The translations under genes were made by a program, and so were the position numbers. The notes beneath the pieces were generated by a model, which was given only the letters and a program-made list of their open reading frames with translations, did not search any database and was not told the DNA's origin. Of a DNA stretch of 64,000 nt, positions 50,246 through 64,000 are shown piece after piece; the first letter of the stretch is position 1, and every line of letters starts with the position of its first letter. Location: the NCBI RefSeq assembly GCF_000723465.1, contig NZ_HF545616.1, positions 124,001-188,000 of the forward strand. Reading direction: 5' to 3'. The stretch is from Ruminococcus bicirculans (ex Wegman et al. 2014) (GTDB lineage Bacteria; Bacillota; Clostridia; Oscillospirales; Ruminococcaceae).

Positions 50246-50272
50246 AAGGGCTGTTAGAACAGCCCTTTTTTG
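50246..50272 (+). terminator. Terminator of tex
   Basis: AAGGGCTGTT pairs perfectly with AACAGCCCTT, followed by TTTTG. Confidence 0.9.
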
Positions 50273-50323
50273 TTTGCCACCGGGTGTGGTCTTGACGCAG
50301 GGAGCTGTGAAACGCCTTATGGC

Positions 50324-50352
50324 TTGACCTTACGGTATAATTATGGTAATAT
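50324..50352 (+). promoter_or_regulatory. Promoter of the first agr regulator/kinase pair
   Basis: TTGACC (50324-50329), 17-bp spacer, TAATAT (50347-50352), about 35 bases before the start codon. Confidence 0.6.
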
Positions 50353-50392
50353 AAAATCGTACATAGACTATGTTATAAAAGGACGTGAAAAA

Positions 50393-51118
50393 ATGCGGAT
50401 CGCAGTTTGTGATGATAATGCTGTTTTTCTTCAGTTTTTTAAATCTATGCTGGCAAATGAACTTGAATCAAGGTCGGTCAAGGCTGAAATAGAAACGTTT
50501 ACCAAAGCTGAGAGCTTTTTTTACTGCCATGGTAAAAAGCCTTTTGCGGCTATATTTCTTGACCTTGATATGCCTGAAATGACCGGTTTTGAAGTCGCGC
50601 GGCAGCTAGGTCAGAATGGTAATTGCTTTGTGATCTTTGTGACAAGTCATCAGGAACTGGTTTATGGCAGCTTTAATTTCAGACCGCTGAATTTTATCTG
50701 CAAAGATCCTGACGCTGATGTTATGAAGGATAGGCTCCATATGGTAGCAGGACAGTTGACGGACGCACTGAAGCAGGAAAAGACAGTGGTTTTGGAGAAT
50801 AGGGAGCAGGGAAGGATCTCTGTAAAGCTTCGAGATGTAACTTATATAGAGAGCAATAGCCACAGCATCATATATCATTTTGCAAATAATAAGGATACTA
50901 TTGCAGTCAGAGATAGCATTGGCGAGATAGAAGAAGCTTATCGTAAATTTGATTTTATACGGGTGCATAAAAAATATATCGTCAATCTGAAATATGTTTT
51001 TAACATAAGCCGTTCAAATGAAACAGTGATCTTCAAAAGCGGTTCAGAGCTTCCCATGAGCCGAGGATATAAGAATGCAGTTGACGACGCTTTGACTGAA
51101 TATCTGAGGAGAAAGTGA
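50393..51118 (+). CDS. AgrA-type LytTR response regulator (agr cassette 1)
   Basis: It has 241 residues from ATG 50393. The receiver has CDDN at the N-terminus and phospho-acceptor Asp57 (FLDLDMPEMTGFEVA). The C-terminal LytTR DNA-binding domain (about 135-241) has ISVKLRDVTYIESNSHSIIYH and IRVHKKYIVNLKYVFNI. It is the response regulator of a peptide quorum-sensing system; its kinase follows with a TGATG overlap. Gene order regulator-kinase-AgrB-AgrD differs from the staphylococcal B-D-C-A order. Its likely target is the promoter at 52501, which carries the CATTTCGTGACA element. Confidence 0.9.
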   Translation: MRIAVCDDNAVFLQFFKSMLANELESRSVKAEIETFTKAESFFYCHGKKPFAAIFLDLDMPEMTGFEVARQLGQNGNCFVIFVTSHQELVYGSFNFRPLNFICKDPDADVMKDRLHMVAGQLTDALKQEKTVVLENREQGRISVKLRDVTYIESNSHSIIYHFANNKDTIAVRDSIGEIEEAYRKFDFIRVHKKYIVNLKYVFNISRSNETVIFKSGSELPMSRGYKNAVDDALTEYLRRK

Positions 51119-52443
51119 TGACTATTACATTGTGGACGATATTTGAGATCTTGATAAACTTTTATCAGGGCGGTCTGGAAACATGGTTTATATATAAATT
51201 TCTTACGCCAAGATCTTATGAAAGGGCTAAGATATGGGCTGTTATATTTGCCGTTTGTGAAGGCTGTCTGGTCACTGCTTTTAATTATTTCACTGTATTT
51301 GAGGGCTTTGGAAGTGCTTTGTACTGGGCAAGTCTGCTTGTTTTTGCGTTTTGCTTTTTTAGTGACAATGCAGTAAAGAAATTTCTTTCCATATCCCTCT
51401 CGCAGGTTGCGATCTTGTTGATAACGTCATTGGAACTAAATGCTGTATCGTCATTTTTTAAAATATCCCTCAGGAAGCTTGTGGTCGAACAAAGCTTGCT
51501 TAGATCTGTGACGCTTATAATGATCCAGATCTCTATATTCATTGTATTTAGATTAATACTGATGGCCTTTAAACATACAGATGATTATACGGCTTCAGAT
51601 TGGGTTACGATAATTGCAGTGCTTATTATTTCGTTTTTCCTCGTTATGGTAATACATGAACTGTCCCTTTCGGCAGACGATGGCCATAGGCTGTATATAA
51701 ATCTGTCATATATGCTTGTCTTTGTTCTTAATATACTTATATTCTGGATAATAAATTCTTTGATAAAAAAGAATCGGAAGCTCAAGGAAATGGAGATAGT
51801 CAAACTAAGAGAGCAGTATCTTGAGCAGTTTATCGGAAATGCCGAGTCGCAATATGACGCCATGAGAAAACTAAGGCATGATATAAAAGACAAATATGAA
51901 ACGGTCAATGAACTGTTGAAAGTCCAAAAAATAGATGAAACGAGAAAATTTATCTCAGAAAGCTTTGACCTTATCGAGAAGTCGGAGTCCTATGTTAAAA
52001 CGAAAAATAATATTGTAAATGCTATCGTTAACGCAAAGCTTACGATGGCTTCTTCCTTGGGGATAAAAATATCATGTATAACAGTTTCAGATTTTGAGGG
52101 AATAAAGGGAACTGACCTTTGCGATCTGTTGAGCAACACGTTGGAGAATGCTATAACGGCATGCAAGGAAATAGCCGACGACGCAAATAAATTTCTGTAT
52201 CTGAAGATCGACCGAGAAACGGATACATATACGTTTTTGATAAAAAATTCAATAGATCATTCTGTTATGGATAGTAATCCAAGGCTTACGACCACAAAGG
52301 CTGATAAAAAACAGCATGGTCTGGGGACCTCAATAATCAGAGAGATAGCAAGAAAATATAATGGCAGATGCGATTTCTATGAGTCGGAGGGAATGTTTTG
52401 CTGTCAGGTAACACTGATGGCAGATACAACGGTCCTGAACTAA
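51118..52443 (+). CDS. AgrC-type GHKL sensor histidine kinase (agr cassette 1)
   Basis: It has 441 residues. Five to six N-terminal membrane helices (about 1-215) form the peptide-sensing region. A cytoplasmic helical region carries the phospho-acceptor His254 in KLRHDIKDK. The HATPase domain of the GHKL type has N box SNTLENAITACKE and KKQHGLGTSIIREIARKYNG. The start overlaps the regulator stop (TGATG), with AGGAG upstream. A hairpin of AACGGTCC...GGACCGTT at 52428-52460 closes the transcript. Receptor specificity for the cassette 1 peptide is inferred from linkage. Confidence 0.9.
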   Translation: MTITLWTIFEILINFYQGGLETWFIYKFLTPRSYERAKIWAVIFAVCEGCLVTAFNYFTVFEGFGSALYWASLLVFAFCFFSDNAVKKFLSISLSQVAILLITSLELNAVSSFFKISLRKLVVEQSLLRSVTLIMIQISIFIVFRLILMAFKHTDDYTASDWVTIIAVLIISFFLVMVIHELSLSADDGHRLYINLSYMLVFVLNILIFWIINSLIKKNRKLKEMEIVKLREQYLEQFIGNAESQYDAMRKLRHDIKDKYETVNELLKVQKIDETRKFISESFDLIEKSESYVKTKNNIVNAIVNAKLTMASSLGIKISCITVSDFEGIKGTDLCDLLSNTLENAITACKEIADDANKFLYLKIDRETDTYTFLIKNSIDHSVMDSNPRLTTTKADKKQHGLGTSIIREIARKYNGRCDFYESEGMFCCQVTLMADTTVLN

Positions 52444-52460
52444 TTGTTCTGGACCGTTGC
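52428..52460 (+). terminator. Hairpin at the end of the cassette 1 kinase gene
   Basis: AACGGTCC-T-GAAC pairs with GTTC-T-GGACCGTT around TAATT. There is no T run, so it may only pause or trim transcription. It directly abuts the operator element of agrB1. Confidence 0.55.
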
Positions 52461-52462
52461 TG

Positions 52463-52474
52463 CATTTCGTGACA
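52463..52474 (+). promoter_or_regulatory. CATTTCGTGACA element upstream of agrB1 (LytTR operator candidate)
   Basis: This 12-mer recurs as CATTTCGGGACA and CATTTGGGGACA before agrB2 (58499, 58520). In both loci it ends 26-27 bp before the -35 box, the place for an activator. Binding by the linked AgrA-type proteins is inferred. Confidence 0.65.
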
Positions 52475-52500
52475 AAAACCTGCAACTCATTCCAAAAAGC

Positions 52501-52529
52501 TTGACATATTGCTGTTATTCTAGTAAAAT
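52501..52529 (+). promoter_or_regulatory. Promoter of agrB1-agrD1
   Basis: TTGACA (52501-52506), 17-bp spacer, TAAAAT (52524-52529). Confidence 0.8.
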
Positions 52530-52565
52530 TCAAATTAGGGTAAGACAAAAGCGAGGCGGTAGTTT

Positions 52566-53162
52566 ATGGATCTTGTTGTATCGGGTATACTTAATTTTTT
52601 GACCGAGCAGGAAGCTATCGGCAAAGCAGATGAGGTACAGGATTTTTATCGGTATGGCATAGAAATAACTATTTCATCAATGTTAAACATTGTGCTTGTA
52701 TTGCTTATGGGAGCATTGACAGGGCATTTGCTGGAAAGCGTAATATATTTGGCAGTGTTTATTGCTGTCAGGGTTATTACCGGAGGGTATCATGCAGATA
52801 CATATTTCAGATGCAATCTGCTGATGTGTTCAACATTTATTGCTACAGCTTTTCTTAATGACAAGGTATGCGGATATATAAATATATGGGTGATAGCTGC
52901 CTTTGTGGTGTTTGAAGAGATAATAGCTTTTGTATTCTGCCCTGTGGAGAACAAAAATAAGCCTATAGAAAAAGATAAAAAGCCAAAGTTCAAAGCGATG
53001 GGAATGATAGTTTTTCTGTTGCTTGATCTGTTTGGCGGGGCGATTATCAATAGATATCAGATGGTTGGATCTATGATCCTGTTAACAAATCTATTAATTG
53101 CAGTTTTAATAATATCAGCGAAGATCAAAGAAAAGAGGTGTGATAAGAATGAGATCATTTAA
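52566..53162 (+). CDS. agrB: AgrB-type peptide-processing membrane protease (agr cassette 1)
   Basis: Membrane cysteine endopeptidase that cleaves AgrD and forms the (thio)lactone. It has 198 residues with about five or six membrane segments. The catalytic set is intact: Arg69, His76 and Cys83 in VRVITGGYHADTYFRC, with the seven-residue spacing of Staphylococcus AgrB (R70, H77, C84). It starts with AAAGCGAGGCGG-type sequence upstream of ATG 52566. Its 3' end overlaps agrD1 by 14 bases, so the peptide is translated in coupling with its protease. Confidence 0.93.
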   Translation: MDLVVSGILNFLTEQEAIGKADEVQDFYRYGIEITISSMLNIVLVLLMGALTGHLLESVIYLAVFIAVRVITGGYHADTYFRCNLLMCSTFIATAFLNDKVCGYINIWVIAAFVVFEEIIAFVFCPVENKNKPIEKDKKPKFKAMGMIVFLLLDLFGGAIINRYQMVGSMILLTNLLIAVLIISAKIKEKRCDKNEII

Positions 53163-53283
53163 GAAATTGCTTGCCAGCCTTATTGCCAGAGCAACTAAGA
53201 GAATGGGTATAGCTGCCTGCGGATGTGCATCAATGTATGGTGGCTATCAAACTAAAGAGCCAAAAAACATTTACAAGAATTAA
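53149..53283 (+). CDS. agrD: AgrD-type autoinducer precursor (agr cassette 1)
   Basis: It has 44 residues, overlapping agrB1; GAGGTG lies 8 bases upstream. An amphipathic basic N-terminal helix (MRSFKKLLASLIARATKRMG) leads to the signal region IAACGCASMYGGYQTKEPKN. The YQTKEP segment matches the post-cleavage YQPxEP of other AgrD proteins. If cleavage lies before Tyr33, the five-residue ring would begin at Ser28 (a lactone). If Cys26 is used, the ring would have seven residues. Two cysteines (24, 26) make this precursor unusual. No other gene competes for this stretch. Confidence 0.82.
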   Translation: MRSFKKLLASLIARATKRMGIAACGCASMYGGYQTKEPKNIYKN

Positions 53284-53822: not shown

Positions 53823-56336
53823 TTATTTAACCTCGGATTCCTTTCTCTTTTTGCCGCTTACGCCCAGCAGAGTCAGAACGCCGCACAGAGCAGCCAGCCA
53901 ACCGATGTGGTTGCTGCTGTCACCGGTCTGAGGACACTTGGTGGAGTCGTCATTTCCTGGCTTATTGGTGTTATTACCACTGCTGCCTGTATTGCTTGTG
54001 TTGCCGCCGTCGGGAAGCTTGTCGATGACCGTATTCTCGCTGCGCTTGGCGCTGCAAACGGTGCATTCCTCGTGCTTGATGCCGGTGGCCTCCTTGGTAG
54101 CGGCCTTGTCGATCATCCACTGGAAGCTGTGTGCTGCCGTGTCGGCCTTGTCGCCGCACTCGCACTCATGCCAGTGGTTGGTGCCGTCATACTTCCACTC
54201 TGTACTGTAGCTGTGGGTATGATTGCTGCCTGTTGCGGGGATCGGTGCGGTTTCAAGAACCTTCTTGCAGACGGTGCATTCCTTATGCTTAGTGCCGTCG
54301 GCGGTTTCGGTAGCTGCTGTGTCAACGATCCACTCGCTGGCGCTGTGAGCCGCAATATTGGCCTTATCGCCGCACTCGCACTCATGCCAGTGATCGGTGT
54401 CGTCATACTTCCACTCGGTGCCGTAGCTGTGGGTATGGCTTGGAGGCGCATCCTTATAGGTGGCCTCGAGCTTCACATCATTGCCGGGCATGGTGAAGGT
54501 GGTAGTCGCCTTGGTGGCGTCTGCCAGAGTGACATTGCCTTCCAGCACGACCCACTTGTCAAAGACCTTGCCTGCCTCCGGTGCGTCCGCCGTAACGGTC
54601 ACAACGGTGTTCTGCGCGATCTTGTCCGTGATGAGTGTTCCTGCGGCAACGGAGGCCGTGCCCTTGATGACCGTGACCGTGAACTCGGTCGCAGCGGAGC
54701 TTCTGACGAACCTTGTCTCGCCGCAGTCGGCGCGCTGGCAGGTGTAGAGAATTCCTTCGCTCTTGCCCTGTTTTGCAGGTTTGCCGCCGTCCCAGTCGTG
54801 GCTGAGCTTATTAACGACATGACCGTAGCGGATAATCTGTCCGCAGCCGGCTGTGCACTGCTGGTCGCCGCTATAGCCTGAGGTGGTGCATCCTGGCTTA
54901 ACCTCATTGATCAGCTTGTAGTTATCGGCAATTTCGTGGAGGGACGGGGTTGAGACGCCCTTCTGCGCGATCCTGTCGCACGATGTGCAGTACTGGCTGC
55001 CGGAATAGCCCCTCTCTGTACAGGTCGCCGTTCTTACATCCCGCAGTTCAAGGGGACCGCTATGCTTGAAGTCGCCGGTCTCGCCCTTTACGGTGCCGCC
55101 GCAAGCCGTGCAGCGGTAGTCGCCCTCATAGGCGCGGTGCCGACAGTCGCCCGATTTGGCGTTATAGCGTTTTCCACCATGGCTCGCGTCTGTGGTTGCC
55201 GAGTTGGCCGTGCCGTAGTAGTACAGCGGCTGCAGTGGACCGGTATGACCGGCGTTTGCAGGTGGGTAGATATCCGAACCGGCACTGATGACATGGCCGC
55301 AGTCTGCGCAGGCGGTGTCGCCGGTGTAGCCCTTACGGTCGCAGATCTGCTCCTTCGCATTGAGCACCGTGGTGCCGCCGCTGTGGTCACAGCCTGCATA
55401 GACAGGCTCAAAGAAGAAACTGCCGCCGCCGGGGGCACCCATGGCGCTGAACTCTGGGATCGTGCAGCCCCACTCAAGGGCGGAGCCGTTGGTCACCAGT
55501 TTGAACTGGGACTTCGCCTCGTTGGCACTCCAATTTTTATGAACCGGTGCAGTGCTGTCAGACACGTTGTATTCGCGGAGATACTCCACCTTCCAGCCGA
55601 TGGCTTTCTGACCGGTTCTCTCCTCGGGATAAAGCTTGATCTTGTCGCCGGGCTTGACGATCATACGGGTTGCCCGACCGTTTTTCACCGTCACAAGGGC
55701 GGTGTCCTTTGTCCAATGATCGGTTCCTTCGTCATCATCCTTGTCGATTTTTGTCTTTGTGTACTCGCAAATGCTGCATTCAGCCTCCATGCCGCCATTG
55801 CTGCCTGTGGTATCGGGGTTTTCGACCACATTCCAGCGGCCCCAACTATGTGGAACCATGATGAATTCCTCGCAGCCGGGAACCTTGCACTTTTCGGGGT
55901 GGGCATAGTCAGATTCAATGATGAGCTCCTCCACCGTCTTGGTCGAGCCGCCGATGTTGAAGGTATACTCATAGATACTGTCGAAGCCGGTGCAGTCCCA
56001 GTTCCAGCCGTAATCATGGACATGGCTCTTCACAGGAACTATATAGTCGCAGACGGAACATCTGAGCACATCGACTCTGCCGCCGCCCACTGCGTCATAG
56101 CTTCTGTCAAACACAAAGGTATGCGGGAAGATGCGCTCCTTGGAGCCGGTGGTCATATAATGCGCTTCGTAAGAGCCTGCTTCAAACAGGCACGGGAGCT
56201 TGTGACCGTCGCATTTCGGGTCGCCGCCCACGACACCGTTATGGGTATTCCCATGCTTATCGACCCAAGTGACCTTGTATTCCGGCGTTCTCTCGCTGTC
56301 TTCTGTGAAGCACTTATAAGTACACCCACTCTTAAA
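53823..56336 (-). pseudogene. Cell-wall-anchored Cys-rich repeat surface protein, 5'-truncated
   Basis: About 838 codons remain open, but the frame begins right after a TGA (56339-56337). There is no signal peptide and no ribosome site, so the 5' end is missing. Below it lie many CxxC knuckle units (CSVCDYIV, CTACGGTV, CTSCDRIA) and two HTHSY-TEWKYD...HWHECECGDK repeats near the C-terminus. A cell-wall sorting signal follows: CPQTGD, a hydrophobic helix (IGWLAALCGVLTLLGVSG), then KKRKESEVK. Base composition is far more GC-rich than the flanking agr genes, pointing to transfer. Long open frames on the opposite strand are a by-product of that composition. Confidence 0.8.
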
Positions 56337-56381
56337 TCAGGCAATAGACCATATTCGATGAATATAAAATAACGCAACATG

Positions 56382-56426
56382 AGGCTATGTCTCCGAAACT
56401 ATTAATGGAGGCATAGCTATTTTTTC
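56382..56426 (+). terminator. Orphan terminator between the surface-protein relic and agr cassette 2
   Basis: GGCTATGTCTCC pairs with GGAGGCATAGCT (two wobble pairs), followed by ATTTTTTC. No plus-strand gene ends here, so it probably belonged to a gene now deleted. Confidence 0.65.
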
Positions 56427-56428
56427 TC

Positions 56429-56457
56429 TTGAAATAATCTCTCCGATGTGGTATAAT
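56429..56457 (+). promoter_or_regulatory. Promoter of the cassette 2 regulator/kinase pair
   Basis: TTGAAA (56429-56434), 17-bp spacer, TATAAT (56452-56457). Confidence 0.8.
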
Positions 56458-56500
56458 GATAACTGATACATAAAGCATGACCAATTGTGAGGTGATTGCT

Positions 56501-57196
56501 ATGAATATTGCTATCGTTGATGATGAACCTGTATTCTTAAAACAACTTCATAACAGATTAAGAGAAATGAAACTCCCCGACTGCGAAATACACGAATTTA
56601 CAAGCGGGAGAGACTTATTGAGTTTCTATGTCAAGGGAATGTATGAAGTCATCATACTCGATGTTGAAATGCCCGATCTGACCGGATTGCAGACCGCTGA
56701 AAGAATCAGACAGATAGATGGTTCAGTTATTATTTCTTTCCTGACGAATTATGCCGAATTTGCCGTTAAGGGCTACGATGTGGGAGCGTTTCGCTATATA
56801 TTGAAAAATCAGCCAGACTATGTATATACCAAACAGCTAAATTCTATCATTGCTGAGTGCCAGCAGCGATTTAGAACTTTCACTTTCAATAATAAAAATC
56901 TGTCATTCAAGTTCAGGCTGACAGATATTCTTTACTTTGAGGGACATAGAAGAAAGGTATCACTATTCACAGTTAATGGTGAATTGGAGTACGGCGGCGA
57001 TTTTTCAACTGTGTGTGGCGAGTTGTTAAAGTACAATTTCGCTATTATAAACCGTGGAATACTTGTAAATCTTGACCATATACAGAATATTACCAAGTAC
57101 GATATTATTCTAAGCAACGGCAGAAAAATCCCCATAGGCAAAACATATAAAGATGAGATAGTTGCTCGCTATCTTAACTATGCAACAGGGAGATGA
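56501..57196 (+). CDS. AgrA-type LytTR response regulator (agr cassette 2)
   Basis: It has 231 residues from ATG 56501 (GTGAGGTG upstream). The receiver has VDDEP and phospho-acceptor Asp54 (IILDVEMPDLTGLQ). The C-terminal LytTR domain runs from about 128 with FRLTDILYFEGHRRKVSLF and IINRGILVNLDHIQNI. It differs clearly from the cassette 1 regulator, so the two cassettes are not a recent duplication. It overlaps the kinase gene by 4 bases (ATGA). It probably acts on the tandem CATTTCGGGACA/CATTTGGGGACA sites before agrB2. Confidence 0.9.
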   Translation: MNIAIVDDEPVFLKQLHNRLREMKLPDCEIHEFTSGRDLLSFYVKGMYEVIILDVEMPDLTGLQTAERIRQIDGSVIISFLTNYAEFAVKGYDVGAFRYILKNQPDYVYTKQLNSIIAECQQRFRTFTFNNKNLSFKFRLTDILYFEGHRRKVSLFTVNGELEYGGDFSTVCGELLKYNFAIINRGILVNLDHIQNITKYDIILSNGRKIPIGKTYKDEIVARYLNYATGR

Positions 57197-58491
57197 TCGA
57201 GTTGCCCGTATTGATTGAAAATATCATTGAGATTGTCAATGTAGCAATTGAAATGATGTTGGTATTCTTATACTTTTCCTTGTTGAGTAAGGCAAAAGTT
57301 AATAAAGCAGTTCTTTATCTGTCGTATCTTCTTTCTACTGTAATACTGTCAGCGACAGTTTTGTTGACAGATAATATTTTAGTGTATCTGATTACAACCA
57401 TTATTCTTATTAGCTCCATGTCCTTTATTTGTTATGATGATTCAATCCGTCATAAAATATTTTGGAACATATTGTTTTTACTGATTATATCTATATCTGA
57501 ACCTATTGTGATTGGATTACTTTGCATTGCTAATATGGGAACACCAGATGAATTCTTAGAGTCTGGTTTAGGACGTTATCTCGGAATGGTAGGCACAAAT
57601 ATAATTTATTTATGGCTTATAGGATTGATGCACCGCATAATAAACAAAAAAATTCGTGAACTGCCGATAAAATATTGGATATTGATAATAGTTATTCCAA
57701 TCATAAGTATTTTTCTTTTACAAACAATGCTTGATGGATTTGTTGGCAGCAACACTTATAGTTATGTTTCTTTGGGCGTTTCTCTTGCAGGAATTATCTT
57801 TATAAACCTTGCTATGTTTAATTTCTTTGAAAGTTTTGAAGATAAGATAAAGTTAAAATACCTTGAAACAATAAAGCAACAGGAACAGGAAAACTATAAG
57901 CTGCTTACCCTGTCATACAAGCAAGTACGAGAGTTTAAACACGATATTGAAAATCAATTTTTAGTTCTGAATGATATGTTGGAAAACAATGATACTGATT
58001 CTGCTAAGGAATATCTTGTCAAGCTAAGCTCATTTGTAAGGCTTGCTAACAGACTCTGCTATACTGGTAATAATGCCGTCGATTCTATTGTGAACATCAA
58101 GGGTTCTCTTGCTCAGACATACGGTATAGAGTTTATTTGCAAGGTCAATATCATAACAAATATCAAGGCAGACGAATTGGAGTTGTGCCGTATCATCGGA
58201 AACGCTCTTGACAATGCAATAGAAGGTTGCCAGAGAGCTGGTGTATCACATAAGCATATTTGGATAAGCCTAATGGAAGAACGAGAGAAGCTATTTATTG
58301 TCATTACAAATACATCAGATAAGGTAGATACATCTGTTTTAACATCAACAAAGAAAGAACAAGGGCTTCACGGCATAGGGATAAACAGTATCAAATCCTC
58401 CGTTGATAGATTGGGTGGGTTAGTAAGTTTCGATTATGATGACGGAATTTTTAAGCTGAACATTATGGTTCGTAATTGTTTACAAATTTAA
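57193..58491 (+). CDS. AgrC-type GHKL sensor histidine kinase (agr cassette 2)
   Basis: It has 432 residues. About six membrane helices make up the first 210 residues. A coiled linker (YLETIKQQEQENYKLLTLSYKQ) leads to His250 in REFKHDIENQ. The GHKL ATPase domain has the N box GNALDNAIEGCQ and the G box KKEQGLHGIGINSIKSSVDRLGG. It starts with the ATGA overlap on the regulator. The composition is AT-rich, like the rest of this cassette. Confidence 0.9.
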   Translation: MIELPVLIENIIEIVNVAIEMMLVFLYFSLLSKAKVNKAVLYLSYLLSTVILSATVLLTDNILVYLITTIILISSMSFICYDDSIRHKIFWNILFLLIISISEPIVIGLLCIANMGTPDEFLESGLGRYLGMVGTNIIYLWLIGLMHRIINKKIRELPIKYWILIIVIPIISIFLLQTMLDGFVGSNTYSYVSLGVSLAGIIFINLAMFNFFESFEDKIKLKYLETIKQQEQENYKLLTLSYKQVREFKHDIENQFLVLNDMLENNDTDSAKEYLVKLSSFVRLANRLCYTGNNAVDSIVNIKGSLAQTYGIEFICKVNIITNIKADELELCRIIGNALDNAIEGCQRAGVSHKHIWISLMEEREKLFIVITNTSDKVDTSVLTSTKKEQGLHGIGINSIKSSVDRLGGLVSFDYDDGIFKLNIMVRNCLQI

Positions 58492-58498
58492 CTATTTG

Positions 58499-58531
58499 CA
58501 TTTCGGGACAAGAAGACGACATTTGGGGACA
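58499..58531 (+). promoter_or_regulatory. Tandem CATTTCGGGACA / CATTTGGGGACA (LytTR operator candidate)
   Basis: Two 12-mers (58499-58510, 58520-58531) 21 bp apart, i.e. two helical turns, the layout bound by LytTR dimers. The second ends 27 bp before the -35 of agrB2. The same element occurs before agrB1 (52463). Confidence 0.7.
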
Positions 58532-58558
58532 CTTTGAGACCTTTTTTCTCAAAACCTA

Positions 58559-58587
58559 TTGAAAAAATTTGCAACTTGTGTTATGAT
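58559..58587 (+). promoter_or_regulatory. Promoter of agrB2 and downstream genes
   Basis: TTGAAA (58559-58564), 17-bp spacer, TATGAT (58582-58587). It lies within the longer AgrB2 reading frame, which rules out its upstream start. Confidence 0.75.
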
Positions 58588-58609
58588 TTTTGCAGGAAGT
58601 GATTCAGAA

Positions 58610-59200
58610 ATGATTTCAAAACTTGCAAAAAGCATAGCACACTTTTTTGTGGTTCAGAACATAACGGAAGAATCCAAAGAGGTGATCTACGCATATGGAA
58701 TGGAGCTGCTGATCTCTGATGTGCTGAATACCATTATCGTCCTGCTGATTGCTCTGTTTTCCCATACGCTGCCTGCGGTTGTTGTATTCATAGCCGTATT
58801 TATGGGGTTGAGACAGTTTGTAGGTGGGTTTCACGCTAACAGTCATCTTAGTTGTATGTTCACGCTTGTCATGGTGATGATGGTTTTCTCTTACGGCATT
58901 TGCAATGTAAGCGGACATATTACGCCAATATTCAGCATCAGTTTCATAATGATAGCATTACCAATCATTCTATGTATTGCTCCCGTTCCGCATCCGAATA
59001 AACCGATGTCAGAGGAAAAGAGTGTCAAGCTAAGGAAAAGAAGCTGCATCTTAGCTGTTACCCTATCCGTTGTCACGATTGCACTGCTTGTATTCCAATA
59101 TCAAAAACTAAGCCTTTATGTATCAAGCGGAATGCTGCTGTCAGCAATCATGGCACTGCTCGGTCACTTTTTGAATCGGGGTGATAACAGTAAACGATGA
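58610..59200 (+). CDS. agrB: AgrB-type peptide-processing membrane protease (agr cassette 2)
   Basis: It has 196 residues from ATG 58610 (GCAGGAAGTG upstream). The catalytic Arg68, His75 and Cys82 in LRQFVGGFHANSHLSC keep the exact spacing of the family. Four to six membrane segments follow, with a basic loop KLRKRS and a charged tail. It must process one or both AgrD-like precursors encoded directly downstream; its 3' end overlaps the first of them by 20 bases. Confidence 0.93.
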   Translation: MISKLAKSIAHFFVVQNITEESKEVIYAYGMELLISDVLNTIIVLLIALFSHTLPAVVVFIAVFMGLRQFVGGFHANSHLSCMFTLVMVMMVFSYGICNVSGHITPIFSISFIMIALPIILCIAPVPHPNKPMSEEKSVKLRKRSCILAVTLSVVTIALLVFQYQKLSLYVSSGMLLSAIMALLGHFLNRGDNSKR

Positions 59201-59354
59201 TAAGGAAAGAGAAAAACGGAGTATTTTGGCGATTGTAATTCTTGCTCTTGTAAGGCTGGTGCTGTATATCTCAAATGGCAGCGTTTGCGGTATTACGTTT
59301 TATCAACCGAAAGAGCCTGACTTATCTGAACTGTTTGAAAGGATGGATTTGTAA
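59181..59354 (+). CDS. First AgrD-like precursor of cassette 2 (predicted ring CGITF)
   Basis: 57 residues if read from the GTG at 59181; a TTG at 59226 with CGGAG just ahead would give 42 residues, closer to usual AgrD length. A hydrophobic helix (ILAIVILALVRLVLYISNG) is followed by SVC-GITF-YQPKEPDLSELF. This is the classic order Cys, three residues, aromatic, then YQPxEP and an acidic tail, as in clostridial AgrD. The stop overlaps the ATG of the next precursor (TAATG), arguing for real translation. Whether it is a signal, a decoy or a degenerate copy is open. Confidence 0.72.
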   Translation: MITVNDDKEREKRSILAIVILALVRLVLYISNGSVCGITFYQPKEPDLSELFERMDL

Positions 59355-59509
59355 TGAAAAAGCTGATGAGCATAGCAAAGAAGGCTTCTACGGCACTGGC
59401 GGCTCTTGCGCTGGTGGTAGCTACCACATCAGTTCCGAGTGCTTGCTTCCATTGGTTCGCACAACCTGTAGAGCCAGAAGAGCTGAGAAACTATGTAAAC
59501 AAGAAATAA
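59354..59509 (+). CDS. agrD: Second AgrD-like precursor of cassette 2 (predicted ring CFHWF)
   Basis: It has 51 residues. A basic amphipathic start (MKKLMSIAKKASTALAALAL) and an Ala/Val/Thr-rich stretch lead to PSA-CFHWF-AQPVEPEELRNYVNKK. The Cys-x3-Phe ring followed by A/YQPxEP is a textbook cyclic-lactone autoinducer precursor. AAAGGATGG lies ahead of the ATG, inside the preceding ORF. The 1-base overlap with that ORF implies coupled synthesis. It is followed 34 bases later by the large secreted protein. Confidence 0.88.
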   Translation: MKKLMSIAKKASTALAALALVVATTSVPSACFHWFAQPVEPEELRNYVNKK

Positions 59510-59543
59510 TTGGCAACTGTGTGTTGCAGAAAGGTGGTATGAA

Positions 59544-62500
59544 ATGGTTAAGAATAAGATTTTGAAACGTATCGTGGCAGGTCTTAGCTGTATTGCGTTA
59601 TCTACAACTATGCTTACGAGTTTACCTGCTTTTGCCGATGATTATGTTGACGAATATCAATATTACTCAACGTTAGATCCTAATGGTGAAGAGTACCAAG
59701 AATGGAAATCAAATCTGGCAAGTTCTGCTGTAAGTGTTCCCCAAAATAGAATGCTTAAAAGTATTCTCAAAAATAATACTTTAATAGCAAATGACTACAT
59801 TGAGTTCAACACTGCAAGTAATGGTCACTATACTATTGGTACAATAGGAGGAAACCCTAACAGTTCAACTGATGATAATAAAAAGATGCTTTTCGGTCAT
59901 CCGGGTGGAGGAACATCAAAAACAACAATTGTTGTTGGTGAAAGCATAAATGAGTTTACATCATCAAATGTAACTTATGATGCTGATGGTTCTAAAAGTG
60001 TTTCCAAAGCTTCTTATGATGGTGTTGATGTCACACAAGAACTATCTATTATTGAGAATTCGGCGACTGGACGAGATGATGTTGTTAAGATTAAGTATAT
60101 CGTCAAAAATGATACAGAATACGCCAAACAAGTGGGCATAAGAATTATGATGGACACTATGCTCGGTGGTAATGATGCTGCGCCATTCAGAGTAAACGGA
60201 TCTGATGTAACAACTGAAACCGTATATTCAGGTTCTAATATTCCGCAAATATGGCAAGCCTTTGATTCCGCAACTAATCCCGGTGTAGTAGCACAAGGTA
60301 CATTCTACAAATCGGGAGACAGAAAACCTGATAAAGTACAATTTACTAATTGGGGAAATGTAACAAGTACGCTATGGGATTATGTGACTCAGCCAGGACG
60401 ATCTAATGGAGATAGTGCAGTATCCATCACATGGAACAAAGATACTTTCACCAGTGGTGAAACACGAGAATTTGTTACCTATTATGGATTGAGTGAGTTA
60501 GAACAGAATTTAATTCCTCCGTTAGCATTAAGTGTATACGCTGATAATAAGGTTAGTATTTCCAATTTTAATTATGATGATATAAATGCAAATGTATATT
60601 TGGATAATATTGGAGATGGCGATGCGACAGATGTATCGATAAAAATCACTGCTGATAACCTTGAACCAAAGTATGGAACCTCACTTACACACAATTATTC
60701 GGTAATAAAGCCAAGTAAAAGCTATTCAATTCCTTTGAAATTTATAGTTCCAACAGATTCAAAACATAATTCTGATATAAATGCAAAATTGGATTTTGAA
60801 TTATCATACAAAGTTGCCAAGACCGGTGATACAGAAGTAAAGCGAATAACCAAAAACATAACAATTCCTAAATTGAAAAGAGCCGTTGTAGTAGTACCGG
60901 GAATAATGGGAATAGATCTTGCAAAAACATCAAATGATGAAAGTGTATGGGGATCTTGGATTGAACAGCCAAGTAACTTTGATGATGTTAAAAAAATTCA
61001 CAATGCGTTCCAGTCGCTCAAATGCGATTACTACGGTAATAGTAATATTGAATTATATCCTGTTAATAATTATGGATATGATGATACTTATAAAGGAATA
61101 ATTGAATCACTAAATAATGATACTGATATTTCTGATAAGTATGATATCTTATTTTTCCCGTATGATTGGAGAATGGGAGCGCAAATAACGGCTAATAATC
61201 TTCATGATCTTATTAGTGATTATAATGAGGTAGTTTTTGTTGCACATAGTATGGGTGGTATTGTTACAGAAAAATACATTTCGGAATATGGTGCTGATAA
61301 TATTTCTAAACAAATAACTGCCGGAACACCATTTTGGGGTGCGCCAACGATGCTTTGCGTTTTAAGCACTGGTGATTTATCATATATCATAGGAGGACTC
61401 GGGGTAGCAGAATCATTATTTACTTCATTTGAACTTCCAAGTGTTTTGGTGAATTTAGGCAGTTGTTATGATTTGTTGCCAAATAAAGATTATACAGATG
61501 ACTGGCAGTGGATATATTCATATAAACGAACTTATGATCATTGGTATGATTATTTTATAGATAACGGCAATTTTACGTATTTTACATTTGACGAATTTGA
61601 TGAGCTGATTTCTGATGATTATAATAATTATCTTTGGATAGATGGAAAATATAACCATAGCCGCATAAAAATATCCCAAAACAATACTAATAATCTGAAA
61701 AGAATAGCATTAGTAGGAAGTAATAGAAATACCATTTCAACTATTCAACATTGTCCTGGCGATAGAGGATTGCAATTCGTTCCAGAATATGGTATTGGCG
61801 ATAGTGTAGTTCCAATTGAAAGTGCAACAATGAATTTTAATCACGATCTTTTGGATATAAAAATCTTTGATCAAGATCATATGGGGTTAATACAGAGTCA
61901 GGAATGCATAGATGAGATATTAAAAAACATAAAAGATACAAAATCATTTATGAAGCTGCCCATGAGAACAAAAATGGCAAATAACAATCTTACATCTAAT
62001 GCCATAGAAGAAACCAAGACACTTTCAAATAAGCTTGCTATTTCAGGTTATTTTGATTTATTCTTTTCAAACGAAACCTGTTCATATTATTACACAAATT
62101 CAGAGGTTCATGAAGGGAATAATTTTAAATTTGACCCTTTAACATCAGTTGGCAATCCGATTTTACTGGCTCAATTTGCTGATGATAATTATGATTGTAA
62201 AATCAATTCACTTGCTGATCAAAACACTGATATTATGTGCAATATTGATGGAAACATCTATTTGTATACCAATATCTCTGTGAATAGTGGATCTGTATTA
62301 TTCTTAAATTTATCAGATGGTTCATTTTTTATTAACATTGATCTTGATAATGATGGTGAAATAGATACAACTGTTACGCCAACTATCAATCCAGGGGTAA
62401 TTCAAGATGATGAGAAATCACCTGAAATAACAGTAGAATCTTGCAATGCAGGTATTAGTAACTCAAATACTATAAATCCCAATATAGTTATAACTAACAA

Positions 62501-62861
62501 CTCTGACAAGCCTTTAAAAATGAGTGATATAACTATAAATTATGTATTTAATGCAGACAATAAAGAAAACCTTGAATACCATTGCGACTGGCTTGCTGTA
62601 GATAATCAATACTTAGGTAATACTTCGGTTTGTGAATTTGTTAATGACGATTACGGAAATACATATGCAAAAATCAAATTTAATACCGATGTTGAACTTC
62701 AACCTAATAAACAGTTTGTAATCCATTTTAGACTAAATGCAGCAGATTGGTCTAATTGGGATACATCGAATGATTATTCAATGGGAACAGAACAGCTATT
62801 GCCAAATGATAAAATAATTGTTTTTTATAATGAACAGCTTATAAGCGGTGTCCAGCCTTGA
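59544..62861 (+). CDS. Secreted LCAT-like lipase/acyltransferase with C-terminal CBM3
   Basis: It has 1105 residues with a signal peptide cut near Ala31 (LPAFA-DDYVDE). Residues about 85-325 form an unassigned beta-rich domain, and about 325-440 a CARDB-like sandwich. An alpha/beta-hydrolase domain of the LCAT family starts at AVVVVPGIMGIDLAK (about 446). It has FFPYDWRMGAQI, nucleophile Ser569 in VAHSMGG, Asp753 in YGIGDSVVPIES and His779 in DQDHMGL, so the triad looks complete. Residues from about 960 match CBM3 (ITNNSDKPLKMSDITINYVF, HCDWLAVDN, LNAADWSNWDTSNDYS), which binds cellulose. It is AT-rich, with AAAGGTGG before the ATG, and probably in the agrB2 transcript. Confidence 0.85.
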   Translation: MVKNKILKRIVAGLSCIALSTTMLTSLPAFADDYVDEYQYYSTLDPNGEEYQEWKSNLASSAVSVPQNRMLKSILKNNTLIANDYIEFNTASNGHYTIGTIGGNPNSSTDDNKKMLFGHPGGGTSKTTIVVGESINEFTSSNVTYDADGSKSVSKASYDGVDVTQELSIIENSATGRDDVVKIKYIVKNDTEYAKQVGIRIMMDTMLGGNDAAPFRVNGSDVTTETVYSGSNIPQIWQAFDSATNPGVVAQGTFYKSGDRKPDKVQFTNWGNVTSTLWDYVTQPGRSNGDSAVSITWNKDTFTSGETREFVTYYGLSELEQNLIPPLALSVYADNKVSISNFNYDDINANVYLDNIGDGDATDVSIKITADNLEPKYGTSLTHNYSVIKPSKSYSIPLKFIVPTDSKHNSDINAKLDFELSYKVAKTGDTEVKRITKNITIPKLKRAVVVVPGIMGIDLAKTSNDESVWGSWIEQPSNFDDVKKIHNAFQSLKCDYYGNSNIELYPVNNYGYDDTYKGIIESLNNDTDISDKYDILFFPYDWRMGAQITANNLHDLISDYNEVVFVAHSMGGIVTEKYISEYGADNISKQITAGTPFWGAPTMLCVLSTGDLSYIIGGLGVAESLFTSFELPSVLVNLGSCYDLLPNKDYTDDWQWIYSYKRTYDHWYDYFIDNGNFTYFTFDEFDELISDDYNNYLWIDGKYNHSRIKISQNNTNNLKRIALVGSNRNTISTIQHCPGDRGLQFVPEYGIGDSVVPIESATMNFNHDLLDIKIFDQDHMGLIQSQECIDEILKNIKDTKSFMKLPMRTKMANNNLTSNAIEETKTLSNKLAISGYFDLFFSNETCSYYYTNSEVHEGNNFKFDPLTSVGNPILLAQFADDNYDCKINSLADQNTDIMCNIDGNIYLYTNISVNSGSVLFLNLSDGSFFINIDLDNDGEIDTTVTPTINPGVIQDDEKSPEITVESCNAGISNSNTINPNIVITNNSDKPLKMSDITINYVFNADNKENLEYHCDWLAVDNQYLGNTSVCEFVNDDYGNTYAKIKFNTDVELQPNKQFVIHFRLNAADWSNWDTSNDYSMGTEQLLPNDKIIVFYNEQLISGVQP

Positions 62862-62877
62862 AGTAGAGGTTGAAGCA

Positions 62878-63741
62878 ATGAAAAAAACAATTATAATTAT
62901 AATTATATCATTATTAGTTACGGCAGGCACTTTTGTTTTATCTAAGTATCACAACAGAGATAAAATGATGACTCAAATGAATAAAGATATACAAGATTAT
63001 TATTATATAAGCTGTCCAAATGGAAATGAGCTTGACATCAAGCAAAAGAGCAGTAATGAATATCAATACTCTATTCTTAGTTATCCTTTTAGCACAACAG
63101 AATACACTAACAAATTTACATTCAGATTAAAAGTGAGTCTTGATCAGAAATTCATATTTGAAAAAATCGGCTTATTGACAGGCACAAGCGGAGTAAACGC
63201 AAATACAGACTTTCCTAATTGTCTTATTAAAGAAAATGATTCTTCTCAATATCAACGTTTTTTTCTCCCCACGCCAGAAGAAGATAATGATGTTTCAACA
63301 ATCCTTGGCGAAGGCAAAATATATGTATCATTCAAGAATGCAATCAATTCATCAGATATATCATCTGTAATAGATGAATATAGTGAATACGGAACAGTGA
63401 CATGGCTTTGGGTCGATACTTACAATGATTCTGATTCAACACTACCAACGATTCAAAATCCTCAAAATGACGAAAGAGGAGTGTATGGTATCCCGTTGTT
63501 CTATGCTGGCGAAAAGCTCATTTCACCATTAGATAAGTTTGTTAATATAATAAATGATAAACACGCTTATTTGGAAGACGAATTTGAAAACATAAGAAAC
63601 GGTATTAATACAGGTAAAGATACTATTAAGCAATCTGATATTAATATTATAGGTATTGTTTTATTGTCCCAAAAAGATTTGAACCGTAGTGCCATAATAA
63701 ACGAAATCGCCATAAAGGGAAATGTCTATGTAGTTAACTAA
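62878..63741 (+). CDS. Membrane protein with sigma-factor-regulator-like (Sigma_reg_C) domain
   Basis: It has 287 residues from ATG 62878 (AGAGG upstream), 16 bases after the lipase-CBM3 gene. One N-terminal membrane helix (KTIIIIIISLLVTAGTFVLS) is followed by an extracellular body. The C-terminal half (about 150-287: KIYVSFKNAINSSDISSVIDEY, GTVTWLWVDTYND, GVYGIPLFYAGEKLISP, NIIGIVLLSQKDLNRS) resembles the Sigma_reg_C domain of anti-sigma-factor-like proteins. The usual cytoplasmic anti-sigma part and a sigma gene are absent. A role in sensing or as a partner of the secreted enzyme is a guess. Confidence 0.65.
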   Translation: MKKTIIIIIISLLVTAGTFVLSKYHNRDKMMTQMNKDIQDYYYISCPNGNELDIKQKSSNEYQYSILSYPFSTTEYTNKFTFRLKVSLDQKFIFEKIGLLTGTSGVNANTDFPNCLIKENDSSQYQRFFLPTPEEDNDVSTILGEGKIYVSFKNAINSSDISSVIDEYSEYGTVTWLWVDTYNDSDSTLPTIQNPQNDERGVYGIPLFYAGEKLISPLDKFVNIINDKHAYLEDEFENIRNGINTGKDTIKQSDINIIGIVLLSQKDLNRSAIINEIAIKGNVYVVN

Positions 63742-63860
63742 ACTATAAATTTATTGTTATCTTGTTTTATTGCCAAATACTATATTTTTCGTTCCACACA
63801 AGTCTGAATAGGCATTGTGGGGCACACCACAACAGGCACAAACTCTATTGGAACTGAATA

Positions 63861-63920
63861 ACCGCAAGCCCTCGGAAATGCTCTTGTAAGCGTTTCTGAG
63901 GGCTTTTTCTTTTCAGCGGT
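63861..63920 (+). terminator. Terminator hairpin framed by ACCGC/GCGGT
   Basis: AGCCCTC-GGAAATGC pairs with GCGTTTCTGAGGGCT, followed by TTTTCTTTT. ACCGC (63861-63865) and GCGGT (63916-63920) extend the symmetry. I recall similar units at the borders of mobilisable elements in gut Firmicutes. The sequence beyond, to 64000, is GC-richer and holds no complete gene. Confidence 0.6.
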
Positions 63921-64000
63921 TAGAATTCCGCTCCGCAGGCTCGGATAGTGATGTGTGGCATTTCCGTTCGCCTGACGGTCAAGCTGAGGTCGGCTCGGTG

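Follow-up and report, generated by a model that had tools for sequence, protein, structure and literature searches.

A conserved second AgrD-type precursor in an agr operon on a predicted integrative mobilizable element of Ruminococcus bicirculans

The agr locus of Ruminococcus bicirculans analyzed here encodes a single AgrB peptidase followed by two small AgrD-type precursors, denoted D1 and D2, and poses two questions, namely, whether one AgrB makes two signals and whether one AgrC reads both. The locus lies in a 64,000-nucleotide stretch of the genome, which is referred to as the window. In its AgrB, the Cys ring and P-x-x-P tail of AgrD, the GHKL kinase, the LytTR regulator and the direct repeats, the operon resembles the agrBDCA systems of the Staphylococcus aureus type and of clostridia, but it differs from these in the presence of two tandem AgrD-type precursors, the first of which appears to belong to a separate subfamily. 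The P-x-x-P segment after the ring is described as the AgrB recognition region in the accessible parts of two previous studies (PMC8748961, PMC3901668), and a third names pentameric thiolactone AIPs (PMC11297923).

The features of the locus are collected in Table 1. Below, G000 is the source genome, which consists of two replicons of 2.24 and 0.73 Mb, the second denoted C2; other G numbers denote other genomes and L numbers denote contigs or loci. The coordinates, the TAATG-type junction and the ring and tail motifs reported for both ORFs in the initial annotation all held on re-reading. The end of agrB overlaps D1 by 20 nt, the D1/D2 junction reads TTGTAATG, with one base common to the D1 stop and the D2 start, and the rings CGITF (D1) and CFHWF (D2) are followed by YQPKEP and AQPVEP, respectively. 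In AgrB, the GG[FY]HA..H..C stretch is retained across 11 aligned sequences. Among solved structures, AgrB matched four SAKe entries over 24-30 residues, with no stretch passing alone, and these matches were judged to be due to chance. The gene for the large protein starts 34 nt past D2 and probably belongs to the agr operon; its product additionally shows a weak match to alpha/beta hydrolases (PGAP1, 19 bits, under the cut-off of 24.3). At several other loci, large proteins with similar starts come after D2.

Table 1. Features of the agr locus and of the element that carries it (window coordinates)
Feature	Coordinates	Strand	Basis
Predicted integrative mobilizable element, 13.9 kb	56302 to 70224 equivalent (L187:6725); left part 56302..64000 in window		borders, identity, mobilization genes
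agrA-type response regulator with LytTR domain	56501..57196	+	PF00072 68.2 bits, PF04397 53.8 bits
agrC-type GHKL sensor kinase	57193..58491	+	PF14501 74.7 bits
Pair of LytTR/AgrA-like direct repeats of 12 nt ahead of agrB, starts 21 nt apart	58499..58531	+	script scan
agrB, membrane peptidase	58610..59200	+	PF04647 138.6 bits, cut-off 23
D1, first AgrD-type precursor, 57 codons, GTG start	59181..59354	+	TIGR04223, purifying selection, own clade
D1 ring codons (CGITF)	59286..59300	+	sequence
D2, canonical AgrD, 51 codons, ATG start	59354..59509	+	TIGR04223 43.9 bits
D2 ring codons (CFHWF)	59444..59458	+	sequence and D2/single-AgrD alignment
Large protein, signal-peptide-like start, CBM3	59544..62861	+	PF00942 35 bits, cut-off 22.4

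Direct repeats ahead of the B and D genes have a regulatory role in the agr system of S. aureus. The pattern used to scan both strands of the window for such repeats was read from the loci under study, so the resulting counts are descriptive. No site in the window other than the one before agrB reaches 12 + 12 matches. Lowering the threshold to 20 gave three sites, compared with 0.5 per shuffled strand; of the two extra sites, one overlaps the first and the other, at 52463, precedes the agrB of a second agr cassette (cassette 1, see below). Similar repeats are located before agrB in 7 of the 14 other loci (G308, L141, L146, L150, L154, G182 and G169, the last with a second copy before D1) and were not found in the scanned L142, L157, L168, C2 region (L160), L016, L017 and L024.

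The first matter to settle is whether D1 is a genuine gene of the AgrD type. D1 scores 21.1 bits against the AgrD profile TIGR04223 (E 2.6e-4), above the curated cut-off of 19; this is far lower than the score of D2, from which D1 differs in the N-terminal part. All 11 aligned D1s match the profile at E <= 1, some of them under the cut-off, and the two D1 copies on C2 fall below it in a genome search, with 18.3 and 16.5 bits. Compared directly, the D1 and D2 alignments match with an hhalign probability of 96.6%. Both precursors possess a five-residue Cys ring that ends in a bulky hydrophobic residue, as expected of an AgrD, followed by the P-x-x-P region (QPKEP in D1, QPVEP in D2), and both are adjacent to agrB, with the exception of a pair at 638.9 kb on C2. 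All 11 aligned D1s have the ring Cys (Cys36), Thr39, the Q-P and the final P, and the ring Cys is likewise invariant in 12 aligned D2s and single AgrDs; the divergent D1s of G169 and G385 retain the Cys and QP..P but not the Thr. As to the N-terminal amphipathic leader expected of an AgrD, D1 shows a charged N-terminus, unlike D2, and a hydrophobic stretch, visible by eye, that is retained in close copies. Between the two starts originally proposed for D1, the 57-codon GTG and the 42-codon TTG, the GTG is favored because it is kept in all nine close D1s compared, the window copy included, and because the agrB stop of L146 overlaps it in the sequence GTGA.

The D1 sequences are subject to purifying selection. 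In nine of the ten pairwise comparisons among G000, G160, G308, G387 and G151, dN/dS is 0.07-0.21 at dS of 0.57-1.08; the tenth pair, involving the near-identical G160, shows zero synonymous change. When four chosen, non-overlapping pairs were summed without the first eight codons of the alignment, where D1 overlaps agrB, changes affected 48.5 of the 131.3 synonymous sites versus 37.5 of the 456.7 nonsynonymous sites (p 1.1e-13); taken pair by pair, three of the four are significant alone and L150/G151 is not (w 0.65, p 0.69). D2 behaves similarly in the same four-pair test (p 3.2e-26). In a tree of 9 D1s, 7 D2s and 8 single AgrDs, the D1s form one clade apart from all the others with a support of 98/98, which is to be read as a bootstrap on short sequences that is not fully settled. 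The AgrD profile score, purifying selection and the separate clade rule out D1 being a chance ORF or a decayed copy: D1 is a real, conserved gene under purifying selection. By sequence comparison, the D1s can be assigned to a second AgrD subfamily, present here in a mobile agr operon. The arrangement recognized in the initial annotation, two coupled AgrD-type precursors behind one AgrB, is thus backed by profile matches, conservation, selection and gene order.

The arrangement also occurs outside the source genome. Among 396 genomes of the family, 17 have matches to a D1 profile at E <= 0.001, and nine of these, from nine genera, have strong matches of 41 bits or more (G000, G151, G154, G160, G169, G182, G308, G385 and G387); the other eight, at 20-27 bits, are taken, as a group rather than match by match, to be ordinary AgrDs. 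Of the nine genomes with strong matches, seven also have D2 behind D1. In the eight close loci, D1 precedes D2 with an overlap of 1 nt (three loci) or 4 nt (five loci). A DNA pattern scan yielded 21 stretches, of which 9 are D1 loci or remnants and 12 have no agrB nearby; it added the D1-D2 pairs of the Ruminococcus metagenome contigs L141, L146, L150 and L154 and a D1-D2 remnant in L139. The distribution is sparse within genera. In the own genus (29 genomes), neighboring AgrD matches at E <= 0.1 occur in G000 only, and G005:C42, G012, G022 and G041, which have this AgrB type, show one AgrD each and no D1; in the genus of G387, D1 was found in 1 of 16 genomes, along with one weak match. In an order-wide sample of 394 genomes searched with the first D1 profile, strong matches are limited to G000, and the weaker ones in 24 other genomes (17-27 bits), most of which were read, look like ordinary AgrDs. 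No D1 match was obtained in plasmid and phage records with tblastn, and neither of the two stretches found by pattern scan in viral contigs has agrB nearby.

The ring sequences were compared across 14 loci, treating the C2 copies as one. The D1 ring is CGITF in seven of these (the window, G160, G308, G387, L141, L146 and G182) and CGFTF in G151 and L150; the rest have CSITF (L154), CSITY (C2), CVLTF (G154), CAVWF (G169) and CAIFF (G385). The D2 ring is CFHWF in the window and G160, CYHWF in G308, G387, L141 and L146, CHCWF in G151 and L150, CHYWF in L154, CWWWY in C2, CFLAF in G154 and CYWWF in G169. The two rings differ at every locus that has both, and both change between distant lineages.

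Several loci depart from the standard layout. The initial annotation held that relatives with a decayed D1 and a conserved D2 would refute the two-precursor reading; such a state was found in one relative, G005:C24, which retains D2 and has lost D1, but part of agrB is lost there as well, so this is a broken locus rather than a case of selective D1 loss. The arrangement in G182 is agrA-agrC-agrB-D1, with no D2 seen and D1 as the sole AgrD beside agrB; this agrB lacks the usual first residues, and the D1 has a different C-terminal end. The G385 contig stops just past D1. In G387 and G151, agrB is shortened at the 5' end, with D1 and D2 intact; an apparent insertion in the G160 agrB turned out to be merely masked sequence. 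C2 (L001, L007, L160) carries a D1-D2 pair with agrB and no nearby GHKL kinase match at 632.7 kb and a third pair of the genome, behind a kinase and without agrB, at 638.9 kb. These two pairs are identical in D2 and most of D1 and diverge further upstream. In the 632.7 kb copy, other sequence stands in place of the usual start of D1.

The D1-D2 operon rides on what is predicted to be an integrative mobilizable element common to different genera. Where unmasked, the element DNA is 99.7-100% identical to that of G160, which is placed in a different genus. The element is sharply delimited on both sides, and inspection by eye shows an 11-nt inverted match, AAGTACACCCA, close to its ends. Genes in the right part specify a small resolvase, a relaxase (PF03432, 113.5 bits), an accessory mobilization protein (NikA-like, 37.2 bits; MobC, 24.4 bits) and, at the element end, a large serine recombinase of 583 aa with Resolvase, Recombinase, Zn ribbon and DUF4368 domains; no direct repeat was detected near the mobilization genes in L187 at the threshold used for the agrB repeats. 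The insertion sites in G000, G160 and G308 are all different. In G000, the element appears to split one surface-protein gene, into two parts on the minus strand. The first, 53823-56231, has an InlB-repeat-like domain and matches Gram_pos_anchor weakly (14.9 bits, cut-off 20); the second, L187:6624-8309, past the right border, is rich in cysteine, begins with a signal-peptide-like segment and lacks Pfam matches. The interrupted genes in G160 and G308 are presumably a DNA methylase gene and yfhO, respectively. G308 shares the left border with G000, along with a recombinase of 94% and a relaxase of 48% identity. Serine recombinases are encoded upstream of the agr genes in L154 and G169, and G182 has a MobC relative of 74% identity; the recombinase or relaxase matches close to the G387, G154 and C2 loci are distant, at about 27% identity, and were not counted as evidence of mobility. 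The element location of the locus had been out of sight for the initial annotation.

Cassette 1, the second agr cassette of the window (50270-53283), comprises a regulator, a kinase, agrB and an AgrD-like ORF. One of the possibilities originally raised was that D1 is a substrate reserved for the AgrB and kinase of this cassette. This is disfavored, given that in G308 and G160 alike a single AgrB match is accompanied by just two AgrD matches at E <= 0.1, namely, D1 and D2, so any processing of D1 in these genomes would fall to that AgrB; these counts are lower bounds because part of G160 is masked and the G308 assembly is a draft in about 40 contigs. Furthermore, cassette 1 has an AgrD-like ORF of its own (53140-53283; GGYQTKEP tail; TIGR04223 18.4 bits, slightly short of the cut-off, 19).

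On balance, we favor a model in which the single AgrB of the agrA-agrC-agrB-D1-D2 operon matures two AIPs, with D1 giving a second signal. D1 and D2 would be translated by coupling, AgrB would cut both precursors at the P-x-x-P tail, and the products released would be two different thiolactones of five residues each, perhaps with short tails, c(CGITF) from D1 and c(CFHWF) from D2. D2 would be the ancestral-type signal for AgrC, and D1, as a member of one old subfamily, a second AgrB substrate, most likely a modulating second signal in the same AgrC circuit; AgrA would then raise expression of agrB-D1-D2 and of the secreted protein behind them. The position of D1 above the AgrD cut-off, the match between the D1 and D2 alignments, its invariant Cys, Thr, Q-P and P, selection, the short overlap with D2, the one-AgrB, two-AgrD complement of G308 and G160, the D2-less G182 and the D1-D2 repeat of G169 all support this model. 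Weighing against it are the low AgrD score of D1, which in the C2 copies is under the cut-off, its different N-terminal part, the non-significant L150/G151 pair, the retention of D2 without D1 in G005, the agrB-linked C2 copy without the D1 start region and the four relatives of the same genus with a single AgrD. Two different signals from one operon are, in our view, plausible.

The same observations bear on other explanations of D1. It could be an AgrD-derived accessory peptide that stays unexported and acts as a decoy, brake or chaperone on AgrB or AgrC, with the ring kept for binding; the charged N-terminus and hydrophobic stretch of the close copies, the separate clade and the place of the gene, after agrB and before D2 at the close loci, are compatible with such a role. 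We nevertheless consider it unlikely: a mere binder would not need the ring Cys and the P-x-x-P residues that are invariant in the aligned D1s, and in G182, its agrB defect notwithstanding, D1 is the only AgrD seen beside agrB. Somewhat less likely still is that the D1 ring peptide targets other cells or receptors, such as foreign agr systems or element-free neighbors, rather than its own AgrC. The operon does sit on a genus-crossing element, the seven loci with CGITF combine it with CFHWF (two), CYHWF (four) or no D2 (one), and there are 6, 9, 10 and 7 GHKL-type matches in G160, G308, G385 and G182, respectively, the weaker ones generic, so that other receptors could exist; there is, however, no known target, and the rings of D1 and D2 covary from lineage to lineage, a pattern also compatible with a receptor common to both. 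That D1 is a functionless leftover of an agrD duplication is very improbable in the face of purifying selection, a single clade, presence in nine genera and the conserved overlap, although this may still hold for single damaged loci, given the loss in G005, the C2 copy and the L139 remnant.

Among the known systems, one parallel to the favored model, in which one AgrB serves both precursors, is Clostridium autoethanogenum. In this bacterium, according to the accessible part of the report, the two agrD genes are split between two operons that each have a separate agrC, and the authors infer that one AgrB processes both AgrDs (PMC8748961); here, both agrDs are in one operon with one agrC. The agr3 locus of phage phiCDHM1 similarly places agr genes on a mobile element and, as far as the accessible part of the report goes, has one agrD and no agrA (PMC3901668); here, the carrier is a predicted integrative mobilizable element, and agrA and two precursors are present. 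G724 (L110, L134) also has two AgrDs behind one AgrB, but these are near-copies of another AgrD type whose rings differ (SASEWDV and SASEWNA), unlike the D1 and D2 combination. The literature search, with most subscription journals beyond its reach, returned no report of such a tandem agrD and, with the same coverage, none of agr on an integrative mobilizable element. The agr operons found in the literature, as described in the accessible parts of the sources, have one agrD each, and a conserved second precursor subfamily behind one AgrB sets the present locus apart.

D1 is short, has GTG or TTG as its start codon at most of the loci read and overlaps agrB in the close group, so it may be missing from annotations and AIP surveys. 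We tentatively suggest, as a scenario that we consider less probable than not by a wide margin, that a two-signal agr system is disseminated by the mobilizable elements of Ruminococcus-like bacteria in the gut, with D1 contributing a second ring peptide that changes slowly and serves to modulate or police responses to the D2 signal. If so, D1 might mark carriers of the element or antagonize other agr circuits, and the operon would represent a mobile two-word code. Since the element is found in different genera, it may be possible for a peptide signaling dialect itself to pass between members of the gut community.
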